Virus record (IMG/VR): IMGVR_UViG_3300046011_007348
Coordinates: 1-64,000 of that record
Source of the DNA: a virus
Strand: one strand, 5' to 3'
DNA: 64,000 nucleotides
In this document: piece by piece, positions 1 through 53,841 of the stretch
Position numbering within the stretch: position 1 is the first letter of the stretch
How the letters are laid out: each line of letters opens with the position of its first letter
Notes under the pieces: model-generated
The model's database searches: none
What the model was told of the DNA's origin: nothing
What the model saw: only the letters and a program-made list of their open reading frames with translations
Program-made: the position numbers and the translations under genes

Positions 1-3000
1 AGCACTATAGTGGCTGGGAACATTAGACGGTGCTTGCCTGGTGATGCGTTAGTGCATACAGAGTCAGGCTTAGTACCTATTGCTAAGATAAGAATAGGAG
101 ATCGTGTTCTCACCAGCAAAGGATTTTACCCTGTAACTAACTTCTTTGATCAAGGTGAGCAATCTCTTTGCAGAATCAAAACTCAAGACGGTAGTTTTGA
201 GTGTACAGCAGAACACAAGATTGCTGTGTTAACAGATGTCTATGGCAACTACAAAATGGTTAAAGCCAAAGACTTGAAGCAAGGTGATAGATTAGTACGT
301 GTTCTAGAAGCCACAGAATTAATACCAGTCAAGTTTGTGGACATTGAATTTGATGTACGAACTGCTCCCACTTACGACATAGAAGTTGCTACTGTGCATG
401 AATTTGTGTGCGAAGGCATCTTAGTTTCAAATAGCGCGGGCATGCGCCAGTTCACTTCTAGTGATAACGTAGCTGCTAACGCTAAAGCAAATCTATGGGA
501 GCAAACACCAACTGGAGAGTGGAGAATAGATCCAGAGAAAGATGCTTTGCGCATGGCAAATCACACCAGAGTTTTTCACCAAAAGCCTACTTATCAGGAA
601 GTATTTGATTCAGTAACGAGTCAATATTGGAGTGGTGAAGGAGCAATACAGTGGGCGGGTGAAGCTGTCGCCAGAGCAAATGCAGATTTATTGATTACCC
701 AAAAGCTAAAAGCAAAGTTTTTGACTGCTTACGAAAATGGTGAAGCTAAAGAATGGATAAGAAAAAATTATCCAGGCATGCCACATGCGGAGATAGAACA
801 TAGAGTAAGTACATATGGATTAAATCCATGTGGTGAAATTATTGGTAGCAATTTCCACTGTGTTAGTGGTGACACGCTGCTAATTACCAAAGATGGATTA
901 CACGCAATCAAAGATGTTGTAGGATGCGATGTTGAGATTTGGAATGGTAGGAATTGGAGTCAAGTACAGCCATTCAAAACTGGCAGTTCTCGCGTTCTTT
1001 ATCGTGTACGATTTGCGGATGGTACGTATTTAGATGCTACCGAATATCATAGATTCTTTGTTAAGGATAGGTTTGGCAAAGAATACAAAGAAGTACAGAC
1101 AAAAGACTTAATGGATGCAAGTAAGTATCGTATTCACACCAAGCCATTTACTATTCAGTATGATGATGGATTGGATATTGATACTAATTATGCTTATAGC
1201 TTGGGAGTAGCCGTAGGAGATGGCACCACAGACAAAGACAACAACGCAAAAATAAGATTGTATGGCAAAAAAATTGCTTTGTCCGTAGCAGGCGATAAGT
1301 CTCCCATCAGGGAATATGAATACGTTACAAACTTCACTGATGTTACAAATTTAAGCTTTTCTGGGGAATTTCTGAAGAGTCTCAAAACCAAACCAGAAGC
1401 ATTAAACATCATAGCAAGTTGGAATCGTGAAGCAATCTTGCATTTTATTGCTGGTTTAGCAGATACAGATGGAACAAATAGTAGCGGCAATGGTATTAGA
1501 ATCTACATCTCTGATTATGACAGAGCGTACAGAATACAATTGTTGCTAATTAAATGTGGTATTCGTTCTTCTGTCAATCTTTGCGCTTATAAAGGAGCAG
1601 TTACAAATTATGGTGTTAGAAGTAAAGATTTGTACTCTGTACAAGTAACTGATTGTGGTAAAATCCCTTGTCAGCGATTAGACGTAAGCCAAGGTAGAGT
1701 ACCTAAATGTAAAGGCAAATGGCAAGTTATCAGGAGTGTGGAGCAATTACCGGGATTGCATGACACTTACTGTTTTAATGAACCACAATATCATGAAGGT
1801 GTATTTGGAAACACGTTGACTGGAAATTGCAATTTGTCAGAAATACACTTAAATCAGCTCAATCCTACTGACTACAAAGAACAAGAAGATGCTTTTAGAG
1901 CAGCTTCACTCTCAGTAGCTGCATTGCTTCACCATAGATTCACCGAGCCTATTTATCAAGAATCTAGAGAGTTAGATCCTATTGTTGGTGTTTCCTTCAC
2001 CGGATTATTTGACTTTTTTGTTCATGCTTTTGGAGCAGAATGGCTTCACTGGTGGCAACAAGAGAGAGAAGACAATGAGCAAGGCAGGATATTTAAACAA
2101 AAAGAACAGGAGTATTTATCTAGATGGAAAGACATAGTACATCAAACTGTTTGGGAATATTGTGATAAACACAATCTTAAACGTCCTAATCGTTGTACTA
2201 CCGTCCAACCCAGTGGGTGTCTAGATCGCACTGCATTAAGAATTTTTGATCAAGGCTTACTTTATGCGGATGAATTGATAGCACCTGGCAGTGGTGAAGC
2301 TACTAATTTGAAACTAAGTGTTCGTGAAGGAGTGTCTGTCACCACTGGAATTGCTAATCAACCATTGCAATTGATTAAAGTTACATTAAACAATGGACGT
2401 GTTTTACGTATGACTCCAAACCATCGTCTTTCTATTGATGGAAACTGGATTTATGCGTCTGACATGACTCCTGGAATGAAGATTGATTTTAGTCTTGGGG
2501 AATATCAAAACAGCCAAGAGACTTCACTACTTGATATAGATCAATTTAGCTATACAAGAGAAGCAAAACAATTAGAGTCTGGGCATAATCGTGGTGGCAT
2601 CACAGCAACTATCATTAAAACGCCCAAGATAATGTCTCCTGACTTAGCTTATTTTATCGGAGCATTATTTGGAAATGGATGTTTAAGTGCAACTGGACAT
2701 CGTATTAGGTTTTCTAGTAATAGTTATAAATTGCTAGAAAGACTACAACAAATAGCACAAAATCTGTTTGTTTTAAATGGGAGAATCAACAAATACTCTG
2801 GCAGAGAAGCTTATGAATTAAGCATTTCTAGTGTTCAGCTTTATGATTGGTTGCAATTGAATGGAATAGCTAAAACAGAGAAAAGTCTAAATCTTGACAG
2901 AATACCATTAGCTATTCGTTGTTCCTCTAAGCAAAGTATTCTATCGTTCTTCTGTGGATTGATTGACACTGATGGATGCATTAGAGTTAATGGCTCAATG

Positions 3001-4011
3001 TCCATTGACAGCGCTAGTGAAGAGTTCATTAGAAACCTTCAACAAATAGGTGAAGCTGTAGGATTGTGTTTCTCCGTATTCCATAACACTGAAGGGGAGA
3101 ACAACCAAACACAGAAAAATATGTGGGGTTTATGTTTAAGCCGCATGTTATCTAAACCTGATGCTTTAGATTATCTAAACGAAAATAGTCAAAAAGCTGA
3201 GATTCGTCCTATTCCTTCACTCAAAAGAAGTTATAAATTTGATCCATATCTCATTGAATCTGTGGTGTGGGAAGAAACTTCTGATTACAGCTACGACTTT
3301 GCGGTGCAAGGAGAGGACGACAATGATTCATGGTATTGGCAAGGAGCGATTAAATCACATAACACAAAGTCTTTGTTAACTGGCGCTTCCCCTGGTTGGC
3401 ATCCTCCCAAAGCACAACAATTTATCCGTCGGATTACTTTCCGTAAGAACGATCCAGTAGCATTGGCATGCATAGACTTTGGATATAACGTAGTTCCATC
3501 ACAATCAGATAAAGATGAAAATGGTAACTTATTAGACAATCCTTTTGATGAACGTTGCACAGAATGGTTAGTAGAAATACCAGTAGCAGTATCTTGGGCA
3601 AATCTACCAGGAGTTGATGTTGATATTTCTAAATTCTCGGTGTTGGCACAGTTTGATTTTTATATGCAAGTGCAGAAGTATTACACAACTCATAATACTT
3701 CAGCCACACTTGAACTACGCCAGAACGAAATTGGTGCTTTAAGTAGAGCTATATATGACTCAATCAAGAACAATGACGGGTATATTTCTGCTGCTATCCT
3801 TAGTCGCTTTGATGATTTCCAGTCTTATCCTAGATTGCCTTTTGAGCCTATTAGCAAGGACAAATACTTGCAGTTGGTAGAAGAAGTAAATCAAAGAAGA
3901 ACTAATGATTCTTTCTTAGATGCTTTGCATAAGTATGATAATGGGTTTGATGAACAATCAGGCCCTGCCCCATGTGATTCAGACAAGTGTCTTTTACCAG
4001 AGTTAAAGTGA
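1..4011 (+). CDS. nrdJ: Class II (adenosylcobalamin-dependent) ribonucleotide reductase, 3' part, with three inteins
   Basis: This enzyme reduces ribonucleotides to deoxyribonucleotides for phage DNA synthesis. The frame is open from base 1, so the 5' end lies outside the window; a GTG at position 10 is an internal valine. With the inteins removed, the extein reads VAGNIRR/SAGMRQF, then NPCGEI with the active-site Cys and Glu, then SNFH/CNLSEIHLNQL, then TTVQPSG/TKSLLTGASPGWHPP, all hallmarks of class II enzymes. The C-terminus carries a Cys pair (CDSDKC) about five residues before the stop, as expected for the cysteines that re-reduce the active site. All three inteins sit in conserved catalytic segments, as is usual for inteins. 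The gene overlaps the next one. Similar intein-rich class II reductases are known from filamentous cyanobacteria. The family call is near certain. Confidence 0.95.
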   Translation, partial: STIVAGNIRRCLPGDALVHTESGLVPIAKIRIGDRVLTSKGFYPVTNFFDQGEQSLCRIKTQDGSFECTAEHKIAVLTDVYGNYKMVKAKDLKQGDRLVRVLEATELIPVKFVDIEFDVRTAPTYDIEVATVHEFVCEGILVSNSAGMRQFTSSDNVAANAKANLWEQTPTGEWRIDPEKDALRMANHTRVFHQKPTYQEVFDSVTSQYWSGEGAIQWAGEAVARANADLLITQKLKAKFLTAYENGEAKEWIRKNYPGMPHAEIEHRVSTYGLNPCGEIIGSNFHCVSGDTLLITKDGLHAIKDVVGCDVEIWNGRNWSQVQPFKTGSSRVLYRVRFADGTYLDATEYHRFFVKDRFGKEYKEVQTKDLMDASKYRIHTKPFTIQYDDGLDIDTNYAYSLGVAVGDGTTDKDNNAKIRLYGKKIALSVAGDKSPIREYEYVTNFTDVTNLSFSGEFLKSLKTKPEALNIIASWNREAILHFIAGLADTDGTNSSGNGIRIYISDYDRAYRIQLLLIKCGIRSSVNLCAYKGAVTNYGVRSKDLYSVQVTDCGKIPCQRLDVSQGRVPKCKGKWQVIRSVEQLPGLHDTYCFNEPQYHEGVFGNTLTGNCNLSEIHLNQLNPTDYKEQEDAFRAASLSVAALLHHRFTEPIYQESRELDPIVGVSFTGLFDFFVHAFGAEWLHWWQQEREDNEQGRIFKQKEQEYLSRWKDIVHQTVWEYCDKHNLKRPNRCTTVQPSGCLDRTALRIFDQGLLYADELIAPGSGEATNLKLSVREGVSVTTGIANQPLQLIKVTLNNGRVLRMTPNHRLSIDGNWIYASDMTPGMKIDFSLGEYQNSQETSLLDIDQFSYTREAKQLESGHNRGGITATIIKTPKIMSPDLAYFIGALFGNGCLSATGHRIRFSSNSYKLLERLQQIAQNLFVLNGRINKYSGREAYELSISSVQLYDWLQLNGIAKTEKSLNLDRIPLAIRCSSKQSILSFFCGLIDTDGCIRVNGSMSIDSASEEFIRNLQQIGEAVGLCFSVFHNTEGENNQTQKNMWGLCLSRMLSKPDALDYLNENSQKAEIRPIPSLKRSYKFDPYLIESVVWEETSDYSYDFAVQGEDDNDSWYWQGAIKSHNTKSLLTGASPGWHPPKAQQFIRRITFRKNDPVALACIDFGYNVVPSQSDKDENGNLLDNPFDERCTEWLVEIPVAVSWANLPGVDVDISKFSVLAQFDFYMQVQKYYTTHNTSATLELRQNEIGALSRAIYDSIKNNDGYISAAILSRFDDFQSYPRLPFEPISKDKYLQLVEEVNQRRTNDSFLDALHKYDNGFDEQSGPAPCDSDKCLLPELK
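31..432 (+). other. Mini-intein 1 in the reductase (134 residues)
   Basis: The segment starts with Cys (CLPGDALV) directly after VAGNIRR and ends in Asn (GILVSN) directly before SAGMRQF. Removing it restores an uninterrupted reductase motif. It has an intein block A (CLPGDALVHT) and a block B with a T-A-E-H core (ECTAEHKI), and the +1 residue is Ser. It is too short for a homing endonuclease and none is visible. The residue before the terminal Asn is Ser instead of the usual His, which should matter for Asn cyclisation. Boundaries come from the extein motif and are precise. Confidence 0.9.
859..1827 (+). other. Intein 2 in the reductase, with LAGLIDADG endonuclease (323 residues)
   Basis: It begins with Cys (CVSGDTLLIT) after GSNFH and ends with Asn (NTLTGN) before CNLSEIHL, so the +1 residue is Cys. 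Two LAGLIDADG-type dodecapeptides are visible: YSLGVAVGDGT and FIAGLADTDGT. Each keeps its acidic residue, so the homing endonuclease could be active. The residue before the last Asn is Gly instead of His. Excision rejoins the conserved segment after the NPCGEI active-site motif. Confidence 0.92.
2218..3363 (+). other. Intein 3 in the reductase, with LAGLIDADG endonuclease (382 residues)
   Basis: It begins with Cys (CLDRTALRIFDQG) after TTVQPSG and ends with the canonical His-Asn (IKSHN) before TKSLLTGASPGW, so the +1 residue is Thr. A TPNHRLSI motif is intein block B. Two dodecapeptides are seen: YFIGALFGNGC and FFCGLIDTDGC. In the first, the acidic residue expected before the final Gly is Asn (codon AAT), so one of the two endonuclease active sites may be lost. 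Splicing motifs look intact. Confidence 0.92.
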
Positions 4012-12820: not shown

Positions 12821-12854
12821 TTTGTGTTAAAAACTAAAGGTGTCATTTAATTAT

Positions 12855-14360
12855 ATGATAAATGTCAAGTTAAATCCTAAAAATAAAACAAAAATTAAAC
12901 AAAAAACTATTGATATCTTGACACAAGATGGGAGATCTAATTCACTGGATAATTTTTACCAAGTCCCTAGGAAGTATGGAGATTTTTTAGAAGAATGTTG
13001 TCGTATACGTTCTGGTAATAAATTTATTCCATTTATGCCATTTGATTATCAAAAAGTTGTTAGTGATTTGATTGATGACTACCGTGGGATAATGATTTTT
13101 AAGACAAGACAATTAGGATTAACAGAATGTATTTCTGCTAAATTCTTACACAAAGCATTATTAAATCCAGCGTATGCTTCTGCTGTTTTATCGTTGGGAC
13201 AAAAAGAGTCGTCTAACATTGCTGTACGTATTCAATCAATGCCTGCTAATGTAAAAGATCTTAAATTTTTAACTAAATCTAAAACTGAAATTCACTTCCA
13301 GAATGCTGGTAAAATATGGTTTCGTCCAGCTACAGATAATGCTACGCGTTCTTTGGAATCTGTTAGTGATATTTTTTATGATGAAGCTGCTTTTCCTCCA
13401 AATTTTAGTGAGATTTATGCCTCATCAACACCATCTCAAGAAGCGGTAGGGGAGAATGCTAGAACTATAATGGCTACTACAATGTCACAACTAGGTAAGT
13501 TATCGACATTTTGGCAAATGTTCAATAGCGCTAATCCTGTGGATGCAGAATCTATAATTCAACGGATAAAGTTGGGGAAAGAAGAGCCATGTTATTGGTG
13601 GATAGATGACAATGGTTGGGCGAAAGTTATTATCCACTGGAAAGCACACCCTATATATTCTTCTGTACCTGACTTCTTAGAGAAAACTAAGAAGAAGCAC
13701 AAGCTAACAGATGATGCTTTGAACAGAGAATATAATTTAGGCATTCCTGACTCAGGTGGTGCATTATTTAGTTATGAATATGTCTCTAAATGCGCAGTCG
13801 GTAGTTGGCAATTACCAAACAAAGATAGATATTATATGGCTGCTTTAGATCCAAATTTTGGTGGTACAGACTATTGGGAATATTTGATTATTGACATTAC
13901 AGAAACTCCTTATCAAGTAGTTGCAGAATATAGAGAAAACTCTAGACAATCTTTGTATTGTATAGACAAAACGCTGGAGTTATCTGATGCCTATAATCCA
14001 GTTTTAACAGTGATAGAACATAATTCAGGTGGTGCTATTATTGCAGCTGAAATCTCCAAATTGAGGCGTAATTTATCAATTGAAACTGTAGCTACTACCA
14101 ACGTATCTAAAGTGCAAAATACAGATAGATTAGCGTTAGCTTTAGAAAAACAAGAAGTTATATTCCCCTACAATTGGGATGGATTAACAGAATTTGGCGC
14201 GTTCTCTTTGCAAAGCAGAAAAGCTATGTACGGACATGACGACTGTGTTATGTGCCTTGCTATTGCTTTTGCTAAATTAGATGTTGCTTTAAGACGCAAA
14301 GGTACTGCCCTAGAAGGAGATCTAGGAACTATCGCGGGACGTAAAAGCAGATTTAGATAA
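12855..14360 (+). CDS. terL: Terminase large subunit
   Basis: A 501-residue DNA-packaging motor. The ATPase part has a deviant Walker A in MIFKTRQLGLTECIS and Walker B in SDIFYDEAAF. The C-terminal nuclease shows MAALDPNFGG with the metal-binding Asp, a middle VIEHNSGG, and a late HDDCVMCLAIAFAK with further acids. The ATG at 12855 is preferred over the GTG at 12840. No small terminase subunit was recognised nearby. Portal and MuF-like genes follow, as expected for a head module. Confidence 0.9.
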   Translation: MINVKLNPKNKTKIKQKTIDILTQDGRSNSLDNFYQVPRKYGDFLEECCRIRSGNKFIPFMPFDYQKVVSDLIDDYRGIMIFKTRQLGLTECISAKFLHKALLNPAYASAVLSLGQKESSNIAVRIQSMPANVKDLKFLTKSKTEIHFQNAGKIWFRPATDNATRSLESVSDIFYDEAAFPPNFSEIYASSTPSQEAVGENARTIMATTMSQLGKLSTFWQMFNSANPVDAESIIQRIKLGKEEPCYWWIDDNGWAKVIIHWKAHPIYSSVPDFLEKTKKKHKLTDDALNREYNLGIPDSGGALFSYEYVSKCAVGSWQLPNKDRYYMAALDPNFGGTDYWEYLIIDITETPYQVVAEYRENSRQSLYCIDKTLELSDAYNPVLTVIEHNSGGAIIAAEISKLRRNLSIETVATTNVSKVQNTDRLALALEKQEVIFPYNWDGLTEFGAFSLQSRKAMYGHDDCVMCLAIAFAKLDVALRRKGTALEGDLGTIAGRKSRFR

Positions 14361-32469: not shown

Positions 32470-32877
32470 ATGAAAGCTATTTGGAATAAAAATATTAATA
32501 TTTCTCCTAAGACTGCTACTTATACTTGGAGTGCAAATTACGCTCCTATTGTTCATGAAGGCGGTACGAGAAAGGATGGAAGTGATTTACCTGCTCGTCC
32601 CTGGGTTTGGAGAACCGTAGGATTAAATGGACAGGAAAGACGTTATGATATTGTACAGGATTTCAATGATAAAATACGTACAGCAAATAGTTTCGATGAA
32701 TTGTTTGAGGACATTGCAACTGAACTTAATAGTGAATTTAGGAAGACTATAGAAGCTGAAATATTTGCATGGGATGCAACGACAAAAAGGAAAAATAGCT
32801 CTACAGTTACGTCTCCAAGAAATATTGTTGATTTAGGAAATTTAAGAAACTCTCAATCTATGTCTATACAGCCATGA
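32470..32877 (+). CDS. HK97 gp10-like tail completion protein
   Basis: 135 residues. YAPIVHEGGTRKDGSDLPAR followed by PW is the signature of the HK97 gp10-like family, in which a Y-A-x-x-V-H-E-G strand precedes a loop and R-P-W. These proteins act at the tail end that joins the head. It follows the sigma gene divergently and overlaps the next gene (ATGA). The N-terminal strand and C-terminal helix fit the fold. Confidence 0.75.
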   Translation: MKAIWNKNINISPKTATYTWSANYAPIVHEGGTRKDGSDLPARPWVWRTVGLNGQERRYDIVQDFNDKIRTANSFDELFEDIATELNSEFRKTIEAEIFAWDATTKRKNSSTVTSPRNIVDLGNLRNSQSMSIQP

Positions 32878-33248
32878 ATGTAGCTGAATTAAACACACAA
32901 CTAAGAACGCTATTAAGCACAGAGTTAGGAGTATACAGCAACGGTACTCCTAGTATTTGGGTGTATGGTTCAACAAGCAGTCCACCATCTGTAAGTAATG
33001 GATTGGAGTGCTTAATACGTCAGAATCCGATTGGATATGCCGGCGGATCTAGTGCTGGGCAAAGATATAAACCGCAGCAGTGGGAGATAATTCTTAAGAA
33101 TTGGAAGCGAGATTCTAATTTAATAAAAGCAATATCTAAAATAGAGCAACGTTATTGTGTTATGTCTTTGACACACATACCATTTAGCAATGAATTTATA
33201 GAACAGGCAACTATTTTTATTAAAGATCCAATTTTTATTAACACTTAG
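32874..33248 (+). CDS. Tail terminator / tail completion protein
   Basis: 124 residues. The early helix (NVAELNTQLRTLLSTE) and the strand QQWEIILKNWKRD fit the small alpha/beta tail terminator that caps the tube. It overlaps the gp10-like gene and comes just before the tail-tube genes, the expected order. No single diagnostic residue is visible. Confidence 0.6.
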   Translation: MNVAELNTQLRTLLSTELGVYSNGTPSIWVYGSTSSPPSVSNGLECLIRQNPIGYAGGSSAGQRYKPQQWEIILKNWKRDSNLIKAISKIEQRYCVMSLTHIPFSNEFIEQATIFIKDPIFINT

Positions 33249-33286: not shown

Positions 33287-34495
33287 ATGCCTTTAGCAAC
33301 TAGTTCTTTAATATTACAGAATACAAGCTTAGATTTAATTTTATTACCTACAAGAGACGCGCTTTTTGGTGCAGTAGATAGATCTGTATCAACAGTCAAA
33401 ATTAAAGCTGGGACTACAGCTACTACAGTTGACATAGGCGCTACTAGTTTAAGCTTGCAATCTGACAGCCCAATTTTTGTAAAGCAGGGAACGTCATTAT
33501 CTTTCTCTGGAGACTCAACTAACAAATTTAGAAGACAAGTAATTATCAATGAAGATGTTTTACTGAATAATACTCCAAAAGCTGTTAGGGTATATCCTTT
33601 ATTGCGCCCAATAGTTTCTACTGCTGCTTTAATAGATGCTGAAACAGTTGGTGTGGCTAACTTACGGTTTGCTAAAAATTATAAAAATAGCAGCACTATT
33701 TCAGTTACGAGTTCTTCTACATTATTAACGGCGAGTACAGGCAATTTTGCAGCAGTAGAAGTTGGAGATACAGTATCTCAAGGTGCCTTTGTTGCCACTG
33801 TAGTGTCTAAGAGAAGTAATACTGTATTAACAATTAGCACAGCTCCAGCCACTGCTTTTTCAAATACATCAGTAGTATTCGCTTCTAACTCGGCAGCTCC
33901 TCTTCTTTCTAGTATTAGTTCTATAACAAACACTTCAGGTAGTGCAAGTTTAAGCGGTTCAAACGATCTTTTTGCTTTGGTAGAGGTTGGAGATTTAGTA
34001 AGTGGGACAGGTGTGGCTGATGATACTTATGTATTATCAAAGCAAAGTAATAACTCTATAACTCTTAATAAAGCATCTACTAGTGGAATTACTAGTGCAA
34101 CTTTTATTTCTCGTATTGCTTCAACACCATTAACTGGTATCCAAACACTTGATTTGAATAATCAAGAAACTCAAGTTGATACTACTCACTTTGGCTCTGG
34201 CGCTGGCACTGAAGCTGCAATTGTTAGATTTAATAGAAGCTACTCTGCATCTGGCATTGCGTTAATTGGTGATGAAGCATTAGAAAGAATTGTAAAAAGA
34301 GTAGCTGGATTTGACAATGCTTTCTTGGGCAGAGAAGTATATGCTATTGCAACTACGTCCGATGGAGAAGCTATCGAAGGTGCTGCAAAAATCATGGCAT
34401 TAAACTTGCCTGCCAACCAAAACGAAGTTAAGAAATACTCTTTCACTCTTATGTATCAAGGCAATGCTGCTTGGGTACAACCTTACTCTTATTAG
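33287..34495 (+). CDS. Tail tube protein, large version with inserted repeats
   Basis: 402 residues. Residues 285-402 share with the two downstream paralogues the core LTGIQTLDLNNQETQVDTTH, then AAIVRFNRSYSASGIALIG, then LPANQNEVKKYSFTLMYQG. Between a short N-terminus and this core lies an extra region of about 130 residues with two G-D-x-V units (VEVGDTVSQGAFVATVVS and VEVGDLVSGTGVADD). The core probably builds the tail tube and the insert may project outward. It is first of three tandem copies. Confidence 0.75.
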   Translation: MPLATSSLILQNTSLDLILLPTRDALFGAVDRSVSTVKIKAGTTATTVDIGATSLSLQSDSPIFVKQGTSLSFSGDSTNKFRRQVIINEDVLLNNTPKAVRVYPLLRPIVSTAALIDAETVGVANLRFAKNYKNSSTISVTSSSTLLTASTGNFAAVEVGDTVSQGAFVATVVSKRSNTVLTISTAPATAFSNTSVVFASNSAAPLLSSISSITNTSGSASLSGSNDLFALVEVGDLVSGTGVADDTYVLSKQSNNSITLNKASTSGITSATFISRIASTPLTGIQTLDLNNQETQVDTTHFGSGAGTEAAIVRFNRSYSASGIALIGDEALERIVKRVAGFDNAFLGREVYAIATTSDGEAIEGAAKIMALNLPANQNEVKKYSFTLMYQGNAAWVQPYSY

Positions 34496-34506
34496 GAGAA
34501 TAAATC

Positions 34507-35295
34507 ATGCCTTTAGCTACCGCGTCTCAGATTTTACAGTCTTTTTCTCTTGAAATGATGCTTTTGCCATTAGATGCTTTTGGTGCTGCCGATAGATCTT
34601 CTACTGGGTATTCAACTGCAACTATTAGCACAACTGGTGCTGCTGTAGGTGCTACGTCTTTAAGCATAACTACTAGTTCCGCTGTTACTGGTACTTCAAC
34701 AAACTTTGCTATTAATGCTGGGACAGCTTTATCTTTTGCTGCTAGCGGCGCAAAATCTAGGCAACAAGTCGTAGTAACCCAAGATCTTCAAAGTATTTTA
34801 ACTACATCTACGACAATTTCTATTTCCCCATTACTTCGCCCAATAGCAGCATCATCAACTGCTACTTTGATTTATCAATCATCAACTAATATTACTGATA
34901 AGGGCGCTACAAAGCTATTGCCATTAAGTGGTATTCAAACACTTGATTTGAATAATCAAGAAACTCAAGTTGATACTACTCATTTTGGCTCTGGCGCTGG
35001 CACTGAAGCTGCAATTGTTAGATTCAATAGAAGTTATTCTGTATCTGGAATTGCATTAATTGGTGATGAATGCTTAGAAACTGTTGTTAAAAGAGCAGCT
35101 GGTTTTGATAACGCTAGACTTGGCAGAGAAGTGTATGCAATTACAACAATGCCTGATGGCGAAAGAATTGCTGGTGTTGCAAAAATCATGGCACTAAACT
35201 TGCCTGCTAACCAAAACGAAGTTAAGAAATACTCTTTTACATTAATGTATCAAGGTTCTATTTACGAATGGACTGCTCCTTACTCTAATTTTTAG
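34507..35295 (+). CDS. Tail tube protein, paralogue 2
   Basis: 262 residues, the same core as paralogue 1 without the inserted units. The shared core is nearly identical at DNA level to that of the first copy over some 100 bases (for example around 34933-35025), pointing to recent duplication or gene conversion. It has a GGAG site just before the ATG. Either copy could be the main tube subunit. Confidence 0.8.
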   Translation: MPLATASQILQSFSLEMMLLPLDAFGAADRSSTGYSTATISTTGAAVGATSLSITTSSAVTGTSTNFAINAGTALSFAASGAKSRQQVVVTQDLQSILTTSTTISISPLLRPIAASSTATLIYQSSTNITDKGATKLLPLSGIQTLDLNNQETQVDTTHFGSGAGTEAAIVRFNRSYSVSGIALIGDECLETVVKRAAGFDNARLGREVYAITTMPDGERIAGVAKIMALNLPANQNEVKKYSFTLMYQGSIYEWTAPYSNF

Positions 35296-35323
35296 TATGG
35301 CTTACTAAAAGCTAGGGGGATAA

Positions 35324-36052
35324 ATGGCTTCTACTTCGCAACCACTAAGAAGTTGCTGCTTAGAAATATTGCTGCTTGACGTTAATTCTGATGGCAGCAC
35401 TATTACTGATTTATTTAAGACAGAAATAGAAGTAGTAGAGACGGCAAACATCTCTGCTACTTCTGTTAAACTGCGCAGTTATACTGATGTATTCTTACCT
35501 GCTGGCACTTCTCTATCTTTTGTTAATCCAGACGCTGACGGCATAAATACATACAGAAAGCAAATTATATTAACAGAAGACACAACGATAGAAGAATTTA
35601 CTACAACTGTTAAAATCTATCCTTTACCTTATTTTTTGCGGCAAGGTGATATAGCAGAAGCCATAGAAGGAATTTTGCCATTATTTGGATTGCAAACAAT
35701 TGATTTATCTTCTCAGGAAACTCAAGTAGAAACAACAAATTTTCGCTCTGGAAAAGGCGTAAATAATGCTTTTGTAAGATTAGCTAAAACATGTAATGTT
35801 ACTGGCATAGCATTGGCAGGAGACAGAGCATTAGAAACTATAGTAAAACCAGTTGGTATTTTCTCTAGTGAACTATTTGGCAGGGACGTATATGTAGCTG
35901 TTACAATGCCAAATGGCGAGCGATTTGAAGGTATAGCTAAAATAGGATCTATGGCATTACCAGCTAATCAAAATGATGTTCAAAAATTTAGCTTTACTTT
36001 ACTATTCCAAGGTGAAGATTTTGTTTGGCATCCTCCCTTCATTTTTAGTTAA
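35324..36052 (+). CDS. Tail tube protein, paralogue 3
   Basis: 242 residues, more diverged: LFGLQTIDLSSQETQVETTN and LPANQNDVQKFSFTLLFQG align with paralogues 1 and 2. It may be a minor tube protein, perhaps at one end of the tail. A GGGGGA stretch precedes the ATG. It ends the tube-gene run. Confidence 0.75.
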   Translation: MASTSQPLRSCCLEILLLDVNSDGSTITDLFKTEIEVVETANISATSVKLRSYTDVFLPAGTSLSFVNPDADGINTYRKQIILTEDTTIEEFTTTVKIYPLPYFLRQGDIAEAIEGILPLFGLQTIDLSSQETQVETTNFRSGKGVNNAFVRLAKTCNVTGIALAGDRALETIVKPVGIFSSELFGRDVYVAVTMPNGERFEGIAKIGSMALPANQNDVQKFSFTLLFQGEDFVWHPPFIFS

Positions 36053-48226: not shown

Positions 48227-48954
48227 TTCCAAATTTATTAAGTTTGAATCCAGATTCATTTATAGAATTATATGAAATATATAAATACAGAGTGGAAGAT
48301 ATAAATAAAGATGAAGCTGCACAAAATCCTAACGTGCCATCAACAATGATTGAAACAATTAGGATTGGTAGTATAGCTATTGATGAAAACACACCATGGG
48401 TTGTCTTTGAAGGCAAAACTTATTATGCAGTTGGATGCCAAGGAGAAGGATTTGATTTAATCGGACGTGGTACTATTCCTACTCCAACATTAACTGTATC
48501 TAACGTTGGTGGTATTTTAACTAAATGGCTAAAAGACAGTAGAGATCCAGCATACAGACTGGAAGGCACACACGTCAAAAGGCGCGTGACTCAAAAAAGA
48601 TTTTTAGATGGACAAGTAGATGCTAATGCTGGGGTAAAAGAACTGCCAATACAAATTTATGTTATTGAACAGCTAGTAGAAGAGAACTATACTAACGCAA
48701 AATTCAGACTTGGATCTGCCTTTGACGTTGAGGGAATAACATTGCCAGCTAGAGTAATGGTGCGTAGCTGCACTTGGGTATATCGTAGTCCAGAATGCAG
48801 TTACGCTAATCCTGCAAAATTTACAATAAATAATGAGCCAACCCAAAATGCAAGTGAAGATTTCTGTGCAAAAACTATTGCAGCTTGTGAAACAAGATTT
48901 GGTGCAGGCAGTATATTACCATTTGGTGGATTCCCAGGATTAAATACTTACTAA
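48223..48954 (+). CDS. gpL-like minor tail protein with iron-sulphur Cys set
   Basis: 243 residues. The C-terminal domain has C183-x8-C192 and C215-x6-C222, the spacing of the four cysteines that bind an Fe-S cluster in lambda gpL, plus R-F near 225 and FGGFPG at the end. The N-terminal part has the gpL-style start (NPDSFIELYEIY) and GDSR-like strand order. It sits in the tail tip. The gene is on the forward strand with gpM, opposite to gpI, J and K. Confidence 0.8.
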   Translation: MIPNLLSLNPDSFIELYEIYKYRVEDINKDEAAQNPNVPSTMIETIRIGSIAIDENTPWVVFEGKTYYAVGCQGEGFDLIGRGTIPTPTLTVSNVGGILTKWLKDSRDPAYRLEGTHVKRRVTQKRFLDGQVDANAGVKELPIQIYVIEQLVEENYTNAKFRLGSAFDVEGITLPARVMVRSCTWVYRSPECSYANPAKFTINNEPTQNASEDFCAKTIAACETRFGAGSILPFGGFPGLNTY

Positions 48955-49139
48955 ACCTCGGATTCGTTGCGTTTTAATTTCATGTATATCTTTATCTTGT
49001 TCCGTAGTTCTAGCTCCTGTATTAATCCACTAACAACTAATCTATTCACAATTGAACTGATAGATTCTTCTGTTTCTTGATGGATTGATTGTAAAACAGC
49101 AAAAACATCAGTTGATACAGACACGGAAACTTGTTTCAT
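48951..49139 (-). CDS. Ribbon-helix-helix DNA-binding protein
   Basis: 62 residues from the ATG at 49139, which is preceded by AGAGG. KQVSVSVSTDVFAVLQSI is the ribbon and first helix, ISSIVNRLVVSGLIQELE the second. It diverges from the helix-turn-helix gene at 49235, with an 18-base palindrome between. It probably represses one or both. Its end overlaps the gpL-like gene by four bases. Confidence 0.75.
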   Translation of the reverse strand: MKQVSVSVSTDVFAVLQSIHQETEESISSIVNRLVVSGLIQELELRNKIKIYMKLKRNESEV

Positions 49140-49154
49140 ATTACCTCTCATTGC

Positions 49155-49218: not shown

Positions 49219-49234
49219 AATGGAGGTAACATAC

Positions 49235-49516
49235 ATGGAAATTATAACTAAATTTAAGCCTATCCCAGACAAATATTCCTCTTTGGATAGACTCATGTGT
49301 CCACTAGAATTTAAACAAAAGTGGAAATTAACGATAGACGAGATGTCTTGGGTGCTGCAAATTAGTCCGGATACTTTTAAATCTTGGGCTGTACCTGAGA
49401 CAAGTGCCAAAAGCAGAAAAACACCTTTAATTGCTTTTGTTGCTTGCAAAGCATTAGACACTCTTTGGGAGCAGCAAGGTATGCCCAACGTTAGAGTTTT
49501 GATGAATTTACATTAA
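49235..49516 (+). CDS. Small helix-turn-helix protein
   Basis: 93 residues from the ATG at 49235, seven bases after GGAGGT; an earlier ATG at 49220 overlaps that site. KLTIDEMSWVLQISPDTFKS reads as a helix-turn-helix with TFKSW in the recognition helix. It likely binds the operator shared with the divergent RHH gene. No effector domain is seen. Confidence 0.7.
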   Translation: MEIITKFKPIPDKYSSLDRLMCPLEFKQKWKLTIDEMSWVLQISPDTFKSWAVPETSAKSRKTPLIAFVACKALDTLWEQQGMPNVRVLMNLH

Positions 49517-49539: not shown

Positions 49540-49605
49540 GTGTACTTTGTCCACGCTATTTGTGTACAGAGTACACTTGCTTTATATATACTTTATTCTT
49601 ATAGT
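49540..49605 (+). promoter_or_regulatory. Operator and promoter of the FtsK operon
   Basis: GTGTAC occurs at 49540 and 49562 and as GTACAC at 49571; the last two form GTGTAC-AGA-GTACAC (49562-49576) abutting the -35. The promoter is TTGCTT (49577), a 17-base spacer, TATAGT (49600). Confidence 0.65.
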
Positions 49606-49615
49606 TTAAGCATAG

Positions 49616-49661
49616 TTCCAGAAACATTCCAGAAATAGTTCGGAAGTAAGACGGAAGTAAG
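49616..49661 (+). repeat. Four tandem 11-12 base iteron-like repeats
   Basis: TTCCAGAAACA, TTCCAGAAATA, GTTCGGAAGTAA and GACGGAAGTAAG follow each other between the promoter start point and the ribosome site, about one helical turn apart. They may bind the operon's own HTH protein. Confidence 0.65.
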
Positions 49662-49669
49662 GAGGAAAA

Positions 49670-50044
49670 ATGGATACAGACATCTTGTATCCTGTTAAAC
49701 ACAAAAGACAGTATAGGAGGAAAACTCAGTCATCGGTGGTGCTATCTGATTGCACCAGAGAAGCAATTGCACTTGAGCTGGAAGTATCTACTAGAACTGT
49801 TCAAGAGTTAATCAGAATTGCATCAACGTATATTGATTTGTTTAATGAGTATACAGATGACAATTACAGATTAAATGGTTTGCCGATAGATTCAAAACAA
49901 CAAGTTGAAGTGTTAAGGCAAATTAGACAAGTTAGACAAAAGTACAGACACGTCAAAGACAAGTCCTTTATTAAGAAGGAGTATCAAAAAATCAACCAAA
50001 GAGTTAAGGAGGAACAAAATGGCAGTCAAGAAAGCAACAGTTAA
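49670..50044 (+). CDS. DNA-binding protein, first gene of the FtsK operon
   Basis: 124 residues. A helix-turn-helix is visible in DCTREAIALELEVSTRTVQE (about 27-46) with a following helix LIRIASTYIDLF. The basic C-terminal half (QIRQVRQKYRHVKDKSFIKK) may wrap DNA or bind partners. A strong AAGGAGG precedes the ATG, and direct repeats and an operator lie just before it, so self-control is likely. It resembles plasmid control or partition proteins in layout. No family is assigned. Confidence 0.6.
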   Translation: MDTDILYPVKHKRQYRRKTQSSVVLSDCTREAIALELEVSTRTVQELIRIASTYIDLFNEYTDDNYRLNGLPIDSKQQVEVLRQIRQVRQKYRHVKDKSFIKKEYQKINQRVKEEQNGSQESNS

Positions 50045-50621
50045 AGATGTCGCAGCATCAATTGGCTGGACAGTCAAAGAGTTGGTAACAAGACTAAATC
50101 AAGAGCCTGGCATTAATGTCGCTCCTAGTGAAGCTTTTCCGACTTTGTCAGAGGACAGCGAGTTGTGGAAGCAAATCCAAGCTGCTGCTCAAAAAAGTCA
50201 AGTTAGTCAAGAGCCAGTTAAGGAGTCTGTCGCTATTGGAGAAGGCGAGATTAGTCCATACCAAGCGCCAATAGAAACAGTTGAGACATTAGCTGAAGCT
50301 CAGAAAGTATTAGCAGAAGAGACAACTGGCATTCAAGTAGAACAAGCTCGTATACTTGGCTCTGTTGCTGGCATTAATGAAACCATTACATATTTTACAG
50401 CACGCCAACAAGTCACTGAAGCATTGCTTAGACATCATATTGAGCAACAAACTAATCTCACAGATAGTTTAATCGGAAAAGCCAAAGAATCTTCATTTGA
50501 ACTGCACAAGCAGACAAGGAACAGCTTGTCAGGAGCCTATGAATTAAAAAAAACTCTAGAAGAGCAAAAAGCCAGGTTGAAAAACATAGTGACGCAAATG
50601 ACACAATCATTTGGGATGTAA
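50019..50621 (+). CDS. Helix-turn-helix and coiled-coil protein
   Basis: 200 residues. Residues 5-50 resemble a small winged/IF2-N-like DNA-binding head (ATVKDVAASIGWTVKELVTR); 70-200 are helical, with long coiled-coil stretches (TLAEAQKVLAEETTGIQVEQ, then ELKKTLEEQKARLKNIVTQM). The start follows AGGAGGA and overlaps the previous gene. A perfect A-AAA-AAA slippery stretch at residues 176-178 may shift some ribosomes into the -1 frame that contains the membrane-protein gene at 50687. Confidence 0.6.
   Translation: MAVKKATVKDVAASIGWTVKELVTRLNQEPGINVAPSEAFPTLSEDSELWKQIQAAAQKSQVSQEPVKESVAIGEGEISPYQAPIETVETLAEAQKVLAEETTGIQVEQARILGSVAGINETITYFTARQQVTEALLRHHIEQQTNLTDSLIGKAKESSFELHKQTRNSLSGAYELKKTLEEQKARLKNIVTQMTQSFGM
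50546..50552 (+). promoter_or_regulatory. Candidate -1 frameshift heptamer A-AAA-AAA
   Basis: In frame TTA AAA AAA ACT. After slipping, the -1 frame stays open through the stop at 50621 and reaches the membrane protein (stop 50917). Frame -1 has no ATG, GTG or TTG between 50549 and 50687. Confidence 0.5.
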
Positions 50622-50686
50622 TCAGACTGGTTAATGAATCGACTTTAGCGCAAATAGAGTTAGCAATATCGATTGGGCAAATTGAG

Positions 50687-50917
50687 ATGCTTCAGCAAAT
50701 TCTAAAAAGAAGAAAGGAGTTAATTAAAATCATGATTGACACATTGTTAGGAGTATCAAGTGTAGCAGGAGTAGCGACTATAGCAAGTTATTTTGCTGTT
50801 GCCACTGCTGTAGTCAATCCAGTTGTATTAACGGCATTAGGTGCAGCTGCTTTTTTAAGTGGTGTCTATATGCAATTTTCATCATCTAATTCAATTCAAA
50901 TTACCCGGAGAAAATAA
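50687..50917 (+). CDS. Small membrane protein (possible frameshift product)
   Basis: 76 residues from ATG 50687, or from ATG 50732 with two membrane helices only. Two hydrophobic helices (LLGVSSVAGVATIASYFAVA and TALGAAAFLSGVYMQF) follow a basic head (QQILKRRKELIKIM). Codons before the ATG read TIIWDVIRLVNESTLAQIEL in frame without a start, so translation may begin upstream by frameshift or at a non-standard codon. Function unknown. Confidence 0.6.
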   Translation: MLQQILKRRKELIKIMIDTLLGVSSVAGVATIASYFAVATAVVNPVVLTALGAAAFLSGVYMQFSSSNSIQITRRK

Positions 50918-50918
50918 C

Positions 50919-51176
50919 ATGTTTAACGGAAAAGAACAAATCACAAGTCGTGTAGTAACTCAGATTACTAATACTAAGTTGGAAAATGGTGGTACTTTGC
51001 ATGACAAAATAGAAACGCATTATTCACCAATTAATTCACACGTTGACAACGCGCTGTCCGGTGTCCTTGTGCCTTTATCGATTGCTGCTGGCTTGTGTGC
51101 ATTTGTTGCAGTATCTAACTGGACAGCACCATCACAGTGTCAAAGTCAGGCACAAGTTCAATCTGCTCATAAGTAA
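50919..51176 (+). CDS. Small single-pass membrane protein
   Basis: 85 residues from the ATG at 50919 behind a CGGAG site; a longer frame with an upstream ATG runs through the previous gene. Polar head (FNGKEQITSRVVTQITNTKL) then one hydrophobic helix (LSGVLVPLSIAAGLCAFVAV) and a Ser/Gln tail. In the FtsK operon. Function unknown. Confidence 0.6.
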   Translation: MFNGKEQITSRVVTQITNTKLENGGTLHDKIETHYSPINSHVDNALSGVLVPLSIAAGLCAFVAVSNWTAPSQCQSQAQVQSAHK

Positions 51177-51184
51177 GGTGACAC

Positions 51185-51595
51185 ATGCTTAGCACATTGA
51201 AAGGATTTTTCTCTAACACAGGAGACAAATTAGAAAACATTTTGTATGGAGTCAATAAGCCAATTTTCCCATACGTTTACGAAGTAAGTGAGGAGGAAGT
51301 GAAGCAAATTACTGAAGACGCAACTGCGACAGAACAAATGGCTGCAAGAGTAAAAACATATCTAAAAGCAGTGGAAAGAAAAACCAAAAGTGTTGAAGAA
51401 ATGTTTAATGCAAACAATGCTTTTGAAAAGTCAATGATGGCAACTGCTGAAAGATTAAATGACAAGAACAAGATGATGTATGCCGCTCGAAAGGAATACA
51501 AAAAACAATTGCCTTTTAGCGTCAAAAGGTACTTGCACCCAGCAAGGATTGTAGGCGATTCTACAGCAAACATTATCAAAGGAATTTGTCAATGA
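51185..51595 (+). CDS. Hypothetical helical protein of the FtsK operon
   Basis: 136 residues, mixed charge and mainly helical (TYLKAVERKTKSVEEMF, KSMMATAERLNDKNKMM), with a Tyr-rich stretch near the start (PIFPYVYEVSEEEVKQI). No membrane segment. Nine bases separate it from its upstream neighbour, and the next ATG overlaps its stop. Unknown family; perhaps a partner of the translocase. Confidence 0.55.
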   Translation: MLSTLKGFFSNTGDKLENILYGVNKPIFPYVYEVSEEEVKQITEDATATEQMAARVKTYLKAVERKTKSVEEMFNANNAFEKSMMATAERLNDKNKMMYAARKEYKKQLPFSVKRYLHPARIVGDSTANIIKGICQ

Positions 51596-51849
51596 TGGAA
51601 GACGAAAGAATGACAGATATTCAGAATTCAGCAAGGTGGATGTTAGGAGCCAATCAAATACTAATCGTCATAGCTTTTGGTGCTTTTACTGGCTATTTAT
51701 CCCGCTATTATCCACCTTCTAGTTCTGTCACGATAACAGTAATTACGTTTGCATGTATTTGTGGATTTCTGTTTCCAGCTACAAGAAAAATACTACTTTT
51801 AGTTGGAATATTTTATGGACTAGGACTTGTCCTTAGTCATTTGAATTAA
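51592..51849 (+). CDS. Small polytopic membrane protein
   Basis: 85 residues from ATG 51592, which overlaps the previous stop (ATGATG). Three hydrophobic stretches (ILIVIAFGAFTGYLSRY, VTITVITFACICGFLF, ILLLVGIFYGLGLVLSHL). The gene directly precedes the FtsK gene. A membrane anchor or pore component is plausible; not a recognised holin. Confidence 0.6.
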   Translation: MMEDERMTDIQNSARWMLGANQILIVIAFGAFTGYLSRYYPPSSSVTITVITFACICGFLFPATRKILLLVGIFYGLGLVLSHLN

Positions 51850-51867
51850 TTGTTTGGGAGGTGCCAA

Positions 51868-51927
51868 GTGGATACCATTACTTGCCTCCTTATTCATTTT
51901 AAAGGGAGGTATTATGTTCTTTTTTAA
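51868..51927 (+). CDS. Possible 19-residue peptide overlapping the FtsK start
   Basis: GTG at 51868 lies six bases after GGGAGGT and opens a 19-codon frame (MDTITCLLIHFKGRYYVLF) that ends inside the FtsK gene. Translation would bring ribosomes to the FtsK start at 51914, which has its own GGGAGG. It may be a coupling peptide or chance. Confidence 0.35.
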   Translation: MDTITCLLIHFKGRYYVLF

Positions 51928-53746
51928 ATCAAAAGCAAAGCCTAAAGTTGTACACAAGAAATTTGAATTAAGTCCAGTTGTGTTGTACAACTTAATTGGA
52001 GTAACAATTTTAGTTTTTACACCTGCAATGATTAGCTGGAAAAATGCTAAAGAGTTGCGAGTAGCAAGTAGTGCCGTAGCAGTAATGTACTCTATGGTAT
52101 TGTTAAAATATGCCCAAAACAATATTGATGAAGCTGATAGACTTGCCATAGAAAAAGAGCATTACTTTACGGCTTATGCTAATGCTTCTGGGGATGTTTA
52201 TTTAAATTCAGAACAACAAATCAAAAATGCTTTGCTGCCTCCTGCTTCTAGTCCAGAAGTAGACTTAGAAGTTCTGCATCCATTAGAAGATACACTCTTA
52301 AAATTAGGCATCAAAGCAACAATAGATGGAGAGCCAATAGATTCTCCTACGTTTACTAGATTCAAGATAGTGCCTGACAAAGGAGTGCATTATCAAAAAT
52401 TTAATAATTTGTCAGATACTCTAAAAGTTCATATGGGGTATGATACACCTCCACTGATTTCATGTCAAAGCAAGTATGTCTCGATTGATGTAGCAAAGAC
52501 AGACTCAGAAAGACGTTTTTGTGAATATCAAGAATACTCAAACAATTTGAATTATTCTCTTGAGAAGTTCACTGTTCCTATTGGAGTTGACATCAACAAC
52601 AATCTTGTTGAAGTGTCGTTATCAGATGCTAACTCCCCTCATTTATTGATTGCTGGAACTACTGGTAGTGGCAAGAGTGGTTGGTTAGTAGCTTGCATAA
52701 CTAGTTTGCTGGATAGATTTCCTGCTGATAAATGCAGACTATTTTTGATTGATCCAAAGCTAGTTGAGTTTGATATTTTTGAAAAATACAAACAAGTTGA
52801 GTTGGTAACAAAACAAGAAGACGCTCTTACTTTGTTGCACAATTTACTTAACACAATGGAAAGTAGATATGAGCTATTCAAAAAACATAAAGCACGGGAT
52901 TTATCTCAATACAATAGAGAAAATCCTAAGAATATTATGCCACGAGTTGTGGTGTGTTTTGATGAATACGCAACATTCATGGTAGGAGACAGTAAAGATG
53001 ATTTTAACGATTGTTTATCTCAACTAGCACAGAGAGCGAGAAGTGCTGGAATACACCTTGTATTAGCTACTCAGCGTCCTGATGCGACAATTGTCACGCC
53101 TAGGATACGCTCTAACATACCTGCTCGCATTGCATTAAAGACTATCCAACACCAGGATAGTGCTATAATTTTAGGAGTAGAAGATGGCACTTTAAACTCC
53201 AAGAATTTGTGTGGTAAAGGTGACTTAATTGCTAATTACAATGGCAAGCTAGAAAGACTGCAAGGATTGTATGTCAAAGATGTAGATTACACGTTATCAA
53301 ATACTGAAATCAAGGAGTTAACAAATGTAGATTCACCTTACCAAAATGACGAAATTGCCTATAGCTATAGTGAAGCACAAGATAGCGAGAAAGGTGAAGT
53401 GTATACTCACTTCTCCAAAACAGCTCAAAAGGATAGTGTACAAGCATTTGAGTCTAAAAACAAATTTGTAACTAGCTTAGTGAAGCTAAAAATCGCTGCC
53501 TTAATGTCTGGGGATATAGACGAAACTGAGCCGTTATTTGATGATAGTTATGGGCTGTCATCAGAGCAGCAGCTTTTAGTGTTGAAGTTTTTTCTAGACA
53601 AAAACATAGGCAAAGAACGCACAATTAAAGCTCTATGGGGAACAAGTTCTGGTGGTAAAAATCATCATAAATATCAAAAATCAAGTGCTATTTATGATGA
53701 CATGATATCTAAAATAAAAGAACTTGAATACTTAACACAAGTGTAA
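51914..53746 (+). CDS. Membrane-anchored FtsK/SpoIIIE-type DNA translocase
   Basis: 610 residues. The ATG at 51914 follows GGGAGG; an in-frame TTG at 51854 is not needed. Two membrane helices (about 20-41 and 50-67) are followed by a linker, then the RecA-like motor with Walker A GTTGSGKS (248-255), Walker B VVVCFDEYATF (Asp350-Glu351), then LATQRPDATIVTPRIRSN and IPARIALKT, characteristic of FtsK/SpoIIIE. The last 60 residues form a winged-helix-like domain (ERTIKALWGTSSGGK), like the gamma domain or plasmid TraB end. A double-strand DNA pump at the membrane is predicted. Unusual in a phage. Confidence 0.85.
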   Translation: MFFFKSKAKPKVVHKKFELSPVVLYNLIGVTILVFTPAMISWKNAKELRVASSAVAVMYSMVLLKYAQNNIDEADRLAIEKEHYFTAYANASGDVYLNSEQQIKNALLPPASSPEVDLEVLHPLEDTLLKLGIKATIDGEPIDSPTFTRFKIVPDKGVHYQKFNNLSDTLKVHMGYDTPPLISCQSKYVSIDVAKTDSERRFCEYQEYSNNLNYSLEKFTVPIGVDINNNLVEVSLSDANSPHLLIAGTTGSGKSGWLVACITSLLDRFPADKCRLFLIDPKLVEFDIFEKYKQVELVTKQEDALTLLHNLLNTMESRYELFKKHKARDLSQYNRENPKNIMPRVVVCFDEYATFMVGDSKDDFNDCLSQLAQRARSAGIHLVLATQRPDATIVTPRIRSNIPARIALKTIQHQDSAIILGVEDGTLNSKNLCGKGDLIANYNGKLERLQGLYVKDVDYTLSNTEIKELTNVDSPYQNDEIAYSYSEAQDSEKGEVYTHFSKTAQKDSVQAFESKNKFVTSLVKLKIAALMSGDIDETEPLFDDSYGLSSEQQLLVLKFFLDKNIGKERTIKALWGTSSGGKNHHKYQKSSAIYDDMISKIKELEYLTQV

Positions 53747-53763
53747 TATTAAATATTGTGTTA

Positions 53764-53841
53764 GTTCCGTTTTACTTCTGTTGTAGTTCTGCTTTACTGC
53801 TGAAGTATTACCGGAATTTAACCGGTATTTTGGTGTTAACA
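53764..53841 (+). repeat. Iteron-like repeats, palindrome and shared motif after the FtsK operon
   Basis: Two 17-mers, GTTCCGTTTTACTTCTG and GTTCTGCTTTACTGCTG (14 of 17 equal), are 22 bases apart. Their complement contains AGAAGTAA and CGGAAC, like the repeats at 49616 but inverted. Next come TACCGG-N7-CCGGTA (53809-53827) and TGGTGTTAACA (53831), which also occurs before dnaB. The 176-base gap holds no gene. Confidence 0.5.

Follow-up and report, generated by a model that had tools for sequence, protein, structure and literature searches.

Why would a phage carry a compact operon in which an FtsK-type DNA translocase stands beside DNA-binding and small membrane proteins? The question arises at positions 49540-53841 of a stretch of viral DNA (the window, 64 kb out of the 72,023-base IMG/VR record IMGVR_UViG_3300046011_007348), where an earlier reading of the sequence alone (hereafter the sequence-only reading) had described a closely packed gene set. 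This set was borne out, its open reading frames (ORFs) lying at the positions given there, but two further genes belong with it, one Cro-like (49235-49516) and located upstream, the other of ribbon-helix-helix (RHH) type and divergent (48951-49151, - strand). Eight genes, from the Cro-like regulator (49235) to the FtsK motor (53746), form a compact unit on the + strand.

The operon encodes an active-looking pump for double-stranded DNA (dsDNA) with N-terminal transmembrane (TM) segments, accompanied by membrane proteins, a helical partner and DNA-binding regulators, and it is conserved as a unit. Our best explanation, which we put at about an even chance, is that it would be a self-contained, repressor-controlled cassette for DNA translocation at the membrane, found in phages of filamentous cyanobacteria and serving the element's own DNA. 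The most interesting additions to the sequence-only reading are a programmed -1 frameshift, which is well supported, and a parallel cassette borne by plasmids.

Regarding the host, the terminase (71% identity), tail protein L (59%), helicase (56%), J-type tail protein (48%) and tape measure protein (39%) all match those of the Cylindrospermopsis phage CrV-01T. The phage thus probably belongs to the same broad group, and its host is probably a filamentous cyanobacterium, as already supposed.

The motor and the conserved unit

By its sequence, the motor belongs among the true FtsK alpha/beta translocases and is neither a terminase nor a VirB4-like protein. Its gene (51914..53746, + strand) encodes 610 residues (630 only with a TTG start further upstream), in which Pfam, PDB matches and hydropathy identify a membrane-anchored dsDNA translocase, confirming that part of the sequence-only reading. 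The Pfam profile FtsK_SpoIIIE matches with an E-value of 1.9e-33 and FtsK_alpha with 5e-4, just missing its cut-off. The protein comprises a TM region near residues 17-67, an alpha domain (113-200), a beta domain (217-457) and a C-terminal helical domain (549-606). Its N-terminal anchor corresponds to a hydropathy peak of 2.11 at residues 17-41 and, in a model of low confidence, to helices 21-39 and 42-67. The Walker A (GTTGSGKS), Walker B (FDE) and QRP motifs are all kept, the invariant residues being G251, S252, G253, K254, D350, E351, Q387, R388 and P389. In the PDB, the motor comes closest to DNA-bound FtsK hexamers (2iuu, E 1e-48 over the alpha and beta domains), followed by EccC and TcpA, and Foldseek agrees with the FtsK match, the poor AlphaFold model of the motor (pLDDT 45) having served as Foldseek input only. 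In the PHROG comparison, FtsK scores 7e-72 vs. 1.7e-08 for terminase, while the NCBIfam bit scores (FtsK 131, EccC 103, TraB 60.6 for a cut-off of 800) all remain below the respective cut-offs. The winged-helix end once proposed for the motor is not supported: only helices (550-603) appear at the C-terminus in the low-confidence model, and FtsK_gamma gives no match to the motor at E up to 1.

In a tree of 14 motor sequences, the phage motors form one clade, which groups with the FtsK of a Pseudanabaena plasmid (support 83/87) and is distinct from the FtsK of chromosomal type, that of mycobacteriophages and the Tra protein of pIJ101, the latter being a very long separate branch of unsure placement. 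Kinship with terminase or VirB4, which would have refuted the sequence-only reading, did not emerge. A packaging role, which the sequence-only reading had also denied, is rejected because the phage has a separate terminase large subunit (TerL; 12840-14360) and the motor is of FtsK type. Other plasmid FtsK genes adjoin M23 peptidase genes, as on a Calothrix plasmid (L089, 2829-6602) and on a Paenibacillus plasmid (L088); the latter also carries DUF87 and secretion-type ATPase genes, which suggests a different, conjugation-like system.

The gene set at 49540-53841 is not a product of chance, since the Cylindrospermopsis phages CrV-01T (gp046-gp053) and Cr-LKS4 and the viral contigs L015-L019 share the order of the eight genes and encode homologous proteins. 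The cassette with the FtsK motor spans four sequence groups, across which all slots are homologous except a weak one, that of an 85-residue single-TM protein, for which the other groups show no clear alignment with the window counterpart. Identity to the window amounts to 32-47% for the helix-turn-helix (HTH), membrane and motor proteins and to about 20-28% for the 200- and 136-residue proteins; the E-values of the pairwise BLAST comparisons come from tiny databases and do not express database-wide significance. A first scan of genome contigs with the motor returned nothing, and a survey of the window-type helical protein across 386 cyanobacterial genomes gave only chance-level matches, in long coiled-coil ORFs.

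A probable programmed frameshift

Hydropathy identifies three hydrophobic products in the operon. The sequence-only reading had counted three small membrane proteins; the hydrophobic products stand, but the 76-residue one (50687-50917) is most likely a frameshift extension of the preceding 200-residue gene rather than a separate gene. The two are probably joined through a -1 frameshift at A_AAA_AAA/G. In the window, the slippery heptamer A_AAA_AAA (50546..50552, + strand) lies inside a run of eight A, with an AGGAG resembling a Shine-Dalgarno sequence upstream and an RNA stem downstream, and it gives access to an ORF in the -1 frame (50543..50917, + strand) that includes the 76-residue ORF and encodes a hydrophobic hairpin. 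The expected products are a soluble form of about 200 residues and a form of about 299 residues carrying the hairpin, so that the frameshift, if real, would yield soluble and membrane-tethered versions of a DNA-handling protein.

Several observations argue for this arrangement. In all four groups, the hydrophobic ORF lies in the -1 frame relative to the 200-residue gene, and this frame is open from a point 1-5 codons upstream of the only A-run that the groups have in common and on into the membrane segment. The slip context is TTA-AAA-AAA-ACT in the window and CAA-AAA-AAG-TTG in CrV, L015, L017, L018 and L019, where A_AAA_AAG is the classic slippery heptamer of dnaX type. The start codons available to the extension differ in position between groups, and L018 lacks any ATG, GTG or TTG between the upstream stop (residue 25) and residue 67, i.e., over 42 codons. 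This start-less stretch is under purifying selection, the ratio of nonsynonymous to synonymous differences (pN/pS) being 0.39 against L008 and 0.29 against L015. Moreover, in the overlap after the slip, synonymous sites are the best conserved of the upstream gene (0.74 vs. about 0.5). The RNA stem 3' of the slip is significant in the window (z -3.1) and in L015, and not significant in CrV or L018. By itself, a synonymous-shuffle test on the open -1 frame is weak (P 0.06-0.44 per lineage); the case for frameshifting is made by the open frame combined with the start-less stretch of L018 under purifying selection. An internal start at 50732 may give an extra product in the window.

When the 72-kb record was scanned for slippery heptamers leading to a long -1 extension, few were found, and the one at 50546 was the clearest in a real gene. 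Elsewhere, a possible second -1 slippery site (AAATTTA at 32838) joins overlapping neck/tail genes (32470-32877 and 32874-33248). The frameshift is restricted to the cassette type of the window and CrV; none is seen in the parallel type represented by the Aphanizomenon phage CL131, considered below.

Regulators, remaining genes and genome surroundings

Spacing between the ORFs of the operon ranges from -25 to +65 nucleotides, with good ribosome-binding sites before most of them. The Cro-like HTH regulator (+ strand) has 93 residues from the ATG at 49235, which is preceded by GGAGGT, or 98 residues if the ATG at 49220 is used; its homologs are CrV gp046 (annotated "Cro/C1-type") and CL131 gp118. 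The divergent RHH protein (CopG-like, 66 residues) matches Pfam RHH_7 with an E-value of 0.002, short of the cut-off of this family, and its homologs in pairwise BLAST are CrV gp045 and an RHH gene located upstream of the CL131-type (type-2) operon on virus L067.

The Cro-like gene is followed by two palindromic operator-like sites, GTGTACTTTGTCCAC (49540-49554) and GTGTACAGAGTACAC (49562-49576), and a record-wide site search recovered full matches to these palindromes nowhere else in the 72 kb. A near copy, TTGTACTCTGTACAA, with 2 mismatches, occurs at 1630 within the ribonucleotide reductase gene (10-4011); the 1333-residue product of this gene has an intein-like middle part (873-1013) that matches endonuclease families. 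The second operator overlaps a promoter-like site, TGTACA-18-TATACT (49563..49592, + strand). As for the single promoter of the sequence-only reading, the motif as such is at chance level (14 found vs. 17.6 expected), and the site gains weight because both palindromic operators overlie the promoter region. Between it and the first gene downstream lies a leader element, AAGACGGAAGTA (49648..49659, + strand), present in every sequence group. This element was also considered as a dispersed segregation or translocation signal, which was rejected, only weak matches being found outside the leader in either genome.

The leader is followed by the gene of a 124-residue HTH protein (49670..50044, + strand), homologous to CrV gp047 (32%) and to CL131 gp116, the latter with an E-value of 1e-8 in an independent search of the whole phage collection. 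Next come, all on the + strand, the 200-residue soluble helical/coiled-coil protein that carries the slip site (50019..50621; homolog CrV gp048), the 85-residue single-TM protein (50919..51176; recognized by hydropathy and matching CrV gp050 in position, with weak sequence similarity), a 136-residue helical protein (51185..51595; homolog CrV gp051) and an 84-residue membrane protein with about 2 TM segments (51595..51849; recognized by hydropathy, homolog CrV gp052, 42%). Of the two DNA-binding proteins previously announced, the 124-residue HTH protein stands, but the 200-residue one is of coiled-coil type, with an N-terminus that is only weakly IF2_N-like (E 0.017). After the motor gene, a terminator-like hairpin (53809-53827) with a T-rich tail closes the operon (53809..53841, + strand).

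Beyond the operon, the phage encodes a terminase, a DnaB helicase, a sliding clamp, a ribonucleotide reductase, an Erf-type protein and a sigma factor, while three tandem genes at 33287-36052 all match one major tail protein family (PHROG 820). No integrase was found among the phage genes scanned and no ParA among those scanned with PHROGs, which covered part of the ORFs; CrV has one ParB-like protein adjoining the terminase.

The parallel cassette, possible roles and known systems

A gene order parallel to that of the window is present in other phages and in plasmids of filamentous cyanobacteria, two places where the sequence-only reading had suggested looking. The phage CL131 was reached through the 124-residue HTH protein. 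Its operon begins with Cro and HTH homologs, followed by one soluble, one single-TM, one helical and two multi-TM proteins and by a 641-residue membrane ATPase (gp108; L022, 12802-14727) with a C-terminal PD-(D/E)XK nuclease-like domain, which is missing from the plasmid relatives of this ATPase (about 510 residues). A search with the latter led to Nostoc plasmids, a Halotia plasmid and the Leptolyngbya phage yong5, where the order is soluble, 1-TM, helical, 2/3-TM and ATPase (the 2/3-TM gene is not listed for the Halotia copy), the proteins being homologous among themselves. The single-TM slot consists of two or three tandem related genes at L068 5188-5873 and L070 4900-5594. A genome scan recovered 36 loci, spread over 19 genomes of Nostoc and its near relatives with up to four per genome, and several complete plasmids of one strain carry one copy each. 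The type-2 ATPase was also found on 11 viral contigs, the cassette being present on those inspected, and the type-2 helical protein in two of the 386 genomes of the phylum survey. In some members, the Cro, RHH and HTH genes are common to both cassette types, which, as judged from their genes, share regulators and layout and differ in their motor.

How could such a cassette work? The HTH and coiled-coil proteins would mark or collect the element's own DNA, which the anchored frameshift form would tie to the inner membrane. A scaffold would be built from the small membrane proteins (two or three in number), and the motor would drive DNA along or through this membrane site. Because a parallel cassette with a different ATPase resides on large Nostoc plasmids, it is the replicon, and not the virion, that would be served, through segregation, positioning or spread along the filament. 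Several points weigh against this explanation. Between the two cassette types, similarity in the small membrane and helical slots is weak (hhalign probability 7-15%) and the N-terminal regions of the motors are not alignable. The type-2 ATPase is only tentatively of the FtsK/HerA kind, its model (pLDDT 59) having matched generic RecA-like folds only. The parts examined yielded no par, relaxase or integrase genes and no clt-like repeats, and a segregation role is not obvious in a lytic phage, CL131 being reported as virulent in culture. Sequence data do not discriminate among three possible services: segregation, spread along the filament and the exclusion of competitors.

The second of these roles, taken by itself, would make the pump an equivalent of the Streptomyces TraB/Spd systems, moving phage or plasmid dsDNA through filament septa without virions, a reading to which we accord a low probability. 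The named hosts of both cassette types are all filamentous (Cylindrospermopsis, Aphanizomenon, Leptolyngbya, Nostoc and Halotia), and the Streptomyces analogues follow the same logic, with a repressor-controlled FtsK motor and small spread proteins, including one DNA-binding membrane protein (PMC4170104). However, few phages of filamentous hosts have been sampled, the searches reach recognisable relatives only and FtsK-like proteins are known as well from phages that infect unicellular bacteria, e.g., mycobacteria and Bacillus, so that the host pattern is suggestive only. Furthermore, the cassette is absent from most cyanobacterial genomes, its motor is not close to TraB, its flanks are devoid of tandem TRS-like repeats, and DNA passage through cyanobacterial septa is undocumented in the open-access literature searched. 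We likewise consider it unlikely that phages and plasmids share a machine with exchangeable motors that is dedicated to moving their dsDNA from cell to cell within a filament and that, in its phage version, uses a frameshift to set the ratio of free to anchored DNA-handling protein; if such an intercellular machine were real, a virus could spread along a filament without making particles.

The main rival to a service to the element's own DNA is superinfection exclusion or defence, in which a membrane-tethered machine binding and pumping or cutting DNA would block the DNA of incoming competitors, to the benefit of phage and plasmid alike. That the cassettes are carried by competing elements, that the CL131-type ATPase bears a fused nuclease-like domain and that FtsK/HerA motors are known in defence systems (PADLOC matches to SspH, mad8 and HerA motor domains) all point this way. 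Yet the PADLOC matches are restricted to the motor domain, the other operon proteins do not rise above noise against defence systems (the 136-residue protein has weak matches of coiled-coil type) and the window motor is without a nuclease domain, which leaves exclusion quite unlikely.

A role in virion or tail assembly is very unlikely. In siphophages, the tail chaperone pair G/GT depends on -1 frameshifting close to the end of G, and the frameshifted pair of the window, which also slips near the end of its first gene, could be such a chaperone in an operon that helps to build a very long tail or to eject DNA through it. The operon does have tail genes on one side and, on the other, the tape measure gene (55189-68553 of the record), and no other G/GT pair was recognized in the slippery-site scan. 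The tape measure gene, however, is on the - strand, starting at about 68.55 kb, whereas the operon is on the + strand, past its 3' end; the operon has its own operators, and the frameshift extension is a hydrophobic hairpin. In CL131, the related cassette (ORF108-118) lies well outside the structural gene cluster (ORF012-059; PMC6293099), and the parallel cassette of plasmids has no virion context. The tail chaperone reading is thus disfavoured by strand, operators and plasmid relatives. The tape measure gene itself, about 13.4 kb long, encodes segments which, read by eye, resemble peptidoglycan-peptidase domains. Finally, a takeover of the host, in which the phage FtsK would compete with the host FtsK or divisome and halt division or chromosome dimer resolution, is where PHROGs classes phage FtsK-like proteins, but it is most improbable, as it leaves the membrane and DNA-binding partners, the frameshift and the plasmid-borne parallel cassette unexplained.

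No description of the cassette was found in the open-access literature on phage FtsK operons and septal passage of DNA or phages, to which the search was confined (subscription papers lying outside it), and its genes have so far been noted one by one only, as "FtsK" or "hypothetical". If the replicon-serving explanation is true, a replicon-borne membrane machine for DNA handling exists in parallel versions in the lytic phages and on the large plasmids of multicellular cyanobacteria, and it would offer a testable route to the question of whether DNA crosses the septa of cyanobacterial filaments.

Among known systems, FtsK/SpoIIIE share with the window motor the TM anchor, the alpha and beta domains and the Walker A/B and QRP motifs, but the latter is short (610 residues), has no recognisable gamma (KOPS-reading) domain and belongs to a phage operon with dedicated partners. 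The CL131-type cassette resembles that of the window in slot order, TM layout and, in some members, Cro, RHH and HTH homologs, while differing in its P-loop ATPase (with a nuclease-like fusion in CL131), its lack of a frameshift and the weak similarity of the remaining slots. The FtsK-like protein of cluster J mycobacteriophages, described as of unclear function (PMC3706429), is also a phage-borne FtsK motor, but one without a membrane domain or a comparable operon and on a separate branch of the tree. TcpA, the conjugation coupling protein of pCW3, matches the window motor in its FtsK/VirD4-like fold, whereas no relaxase or secretion channel genes were found beside the phage operon. Lastly, Streptomyces plasmids encode an FtsK-like TraB and Spd membrane proteins, including the DNA-binding SpdB2, under the control of Kor repressors (PMC4170104), and in pIJ101 the spd genes adjoin tra. 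These systems (pIJ101 tra-spd, pSVH1) and the window cassette have in common a membrane FtsK-type motor, small membrane proteins, a dedicated repressor and a multicellular host. In contrast, the window motor is much closer to FtsK, in particular that of the Pseudanabaena plasmid, the partners are unrelated, and no clt-type tandem 8-bp repeats occur in the operon flanks, the motif scan of the rest of the phage not being exhaustive. Membership in the TraB family fails on the motor, which is not close to TraB, and on the missing clt repeats, and specific kinship with Streptomyces TraB is not supported; it is as an analogy that the TraB idea possibly holds.

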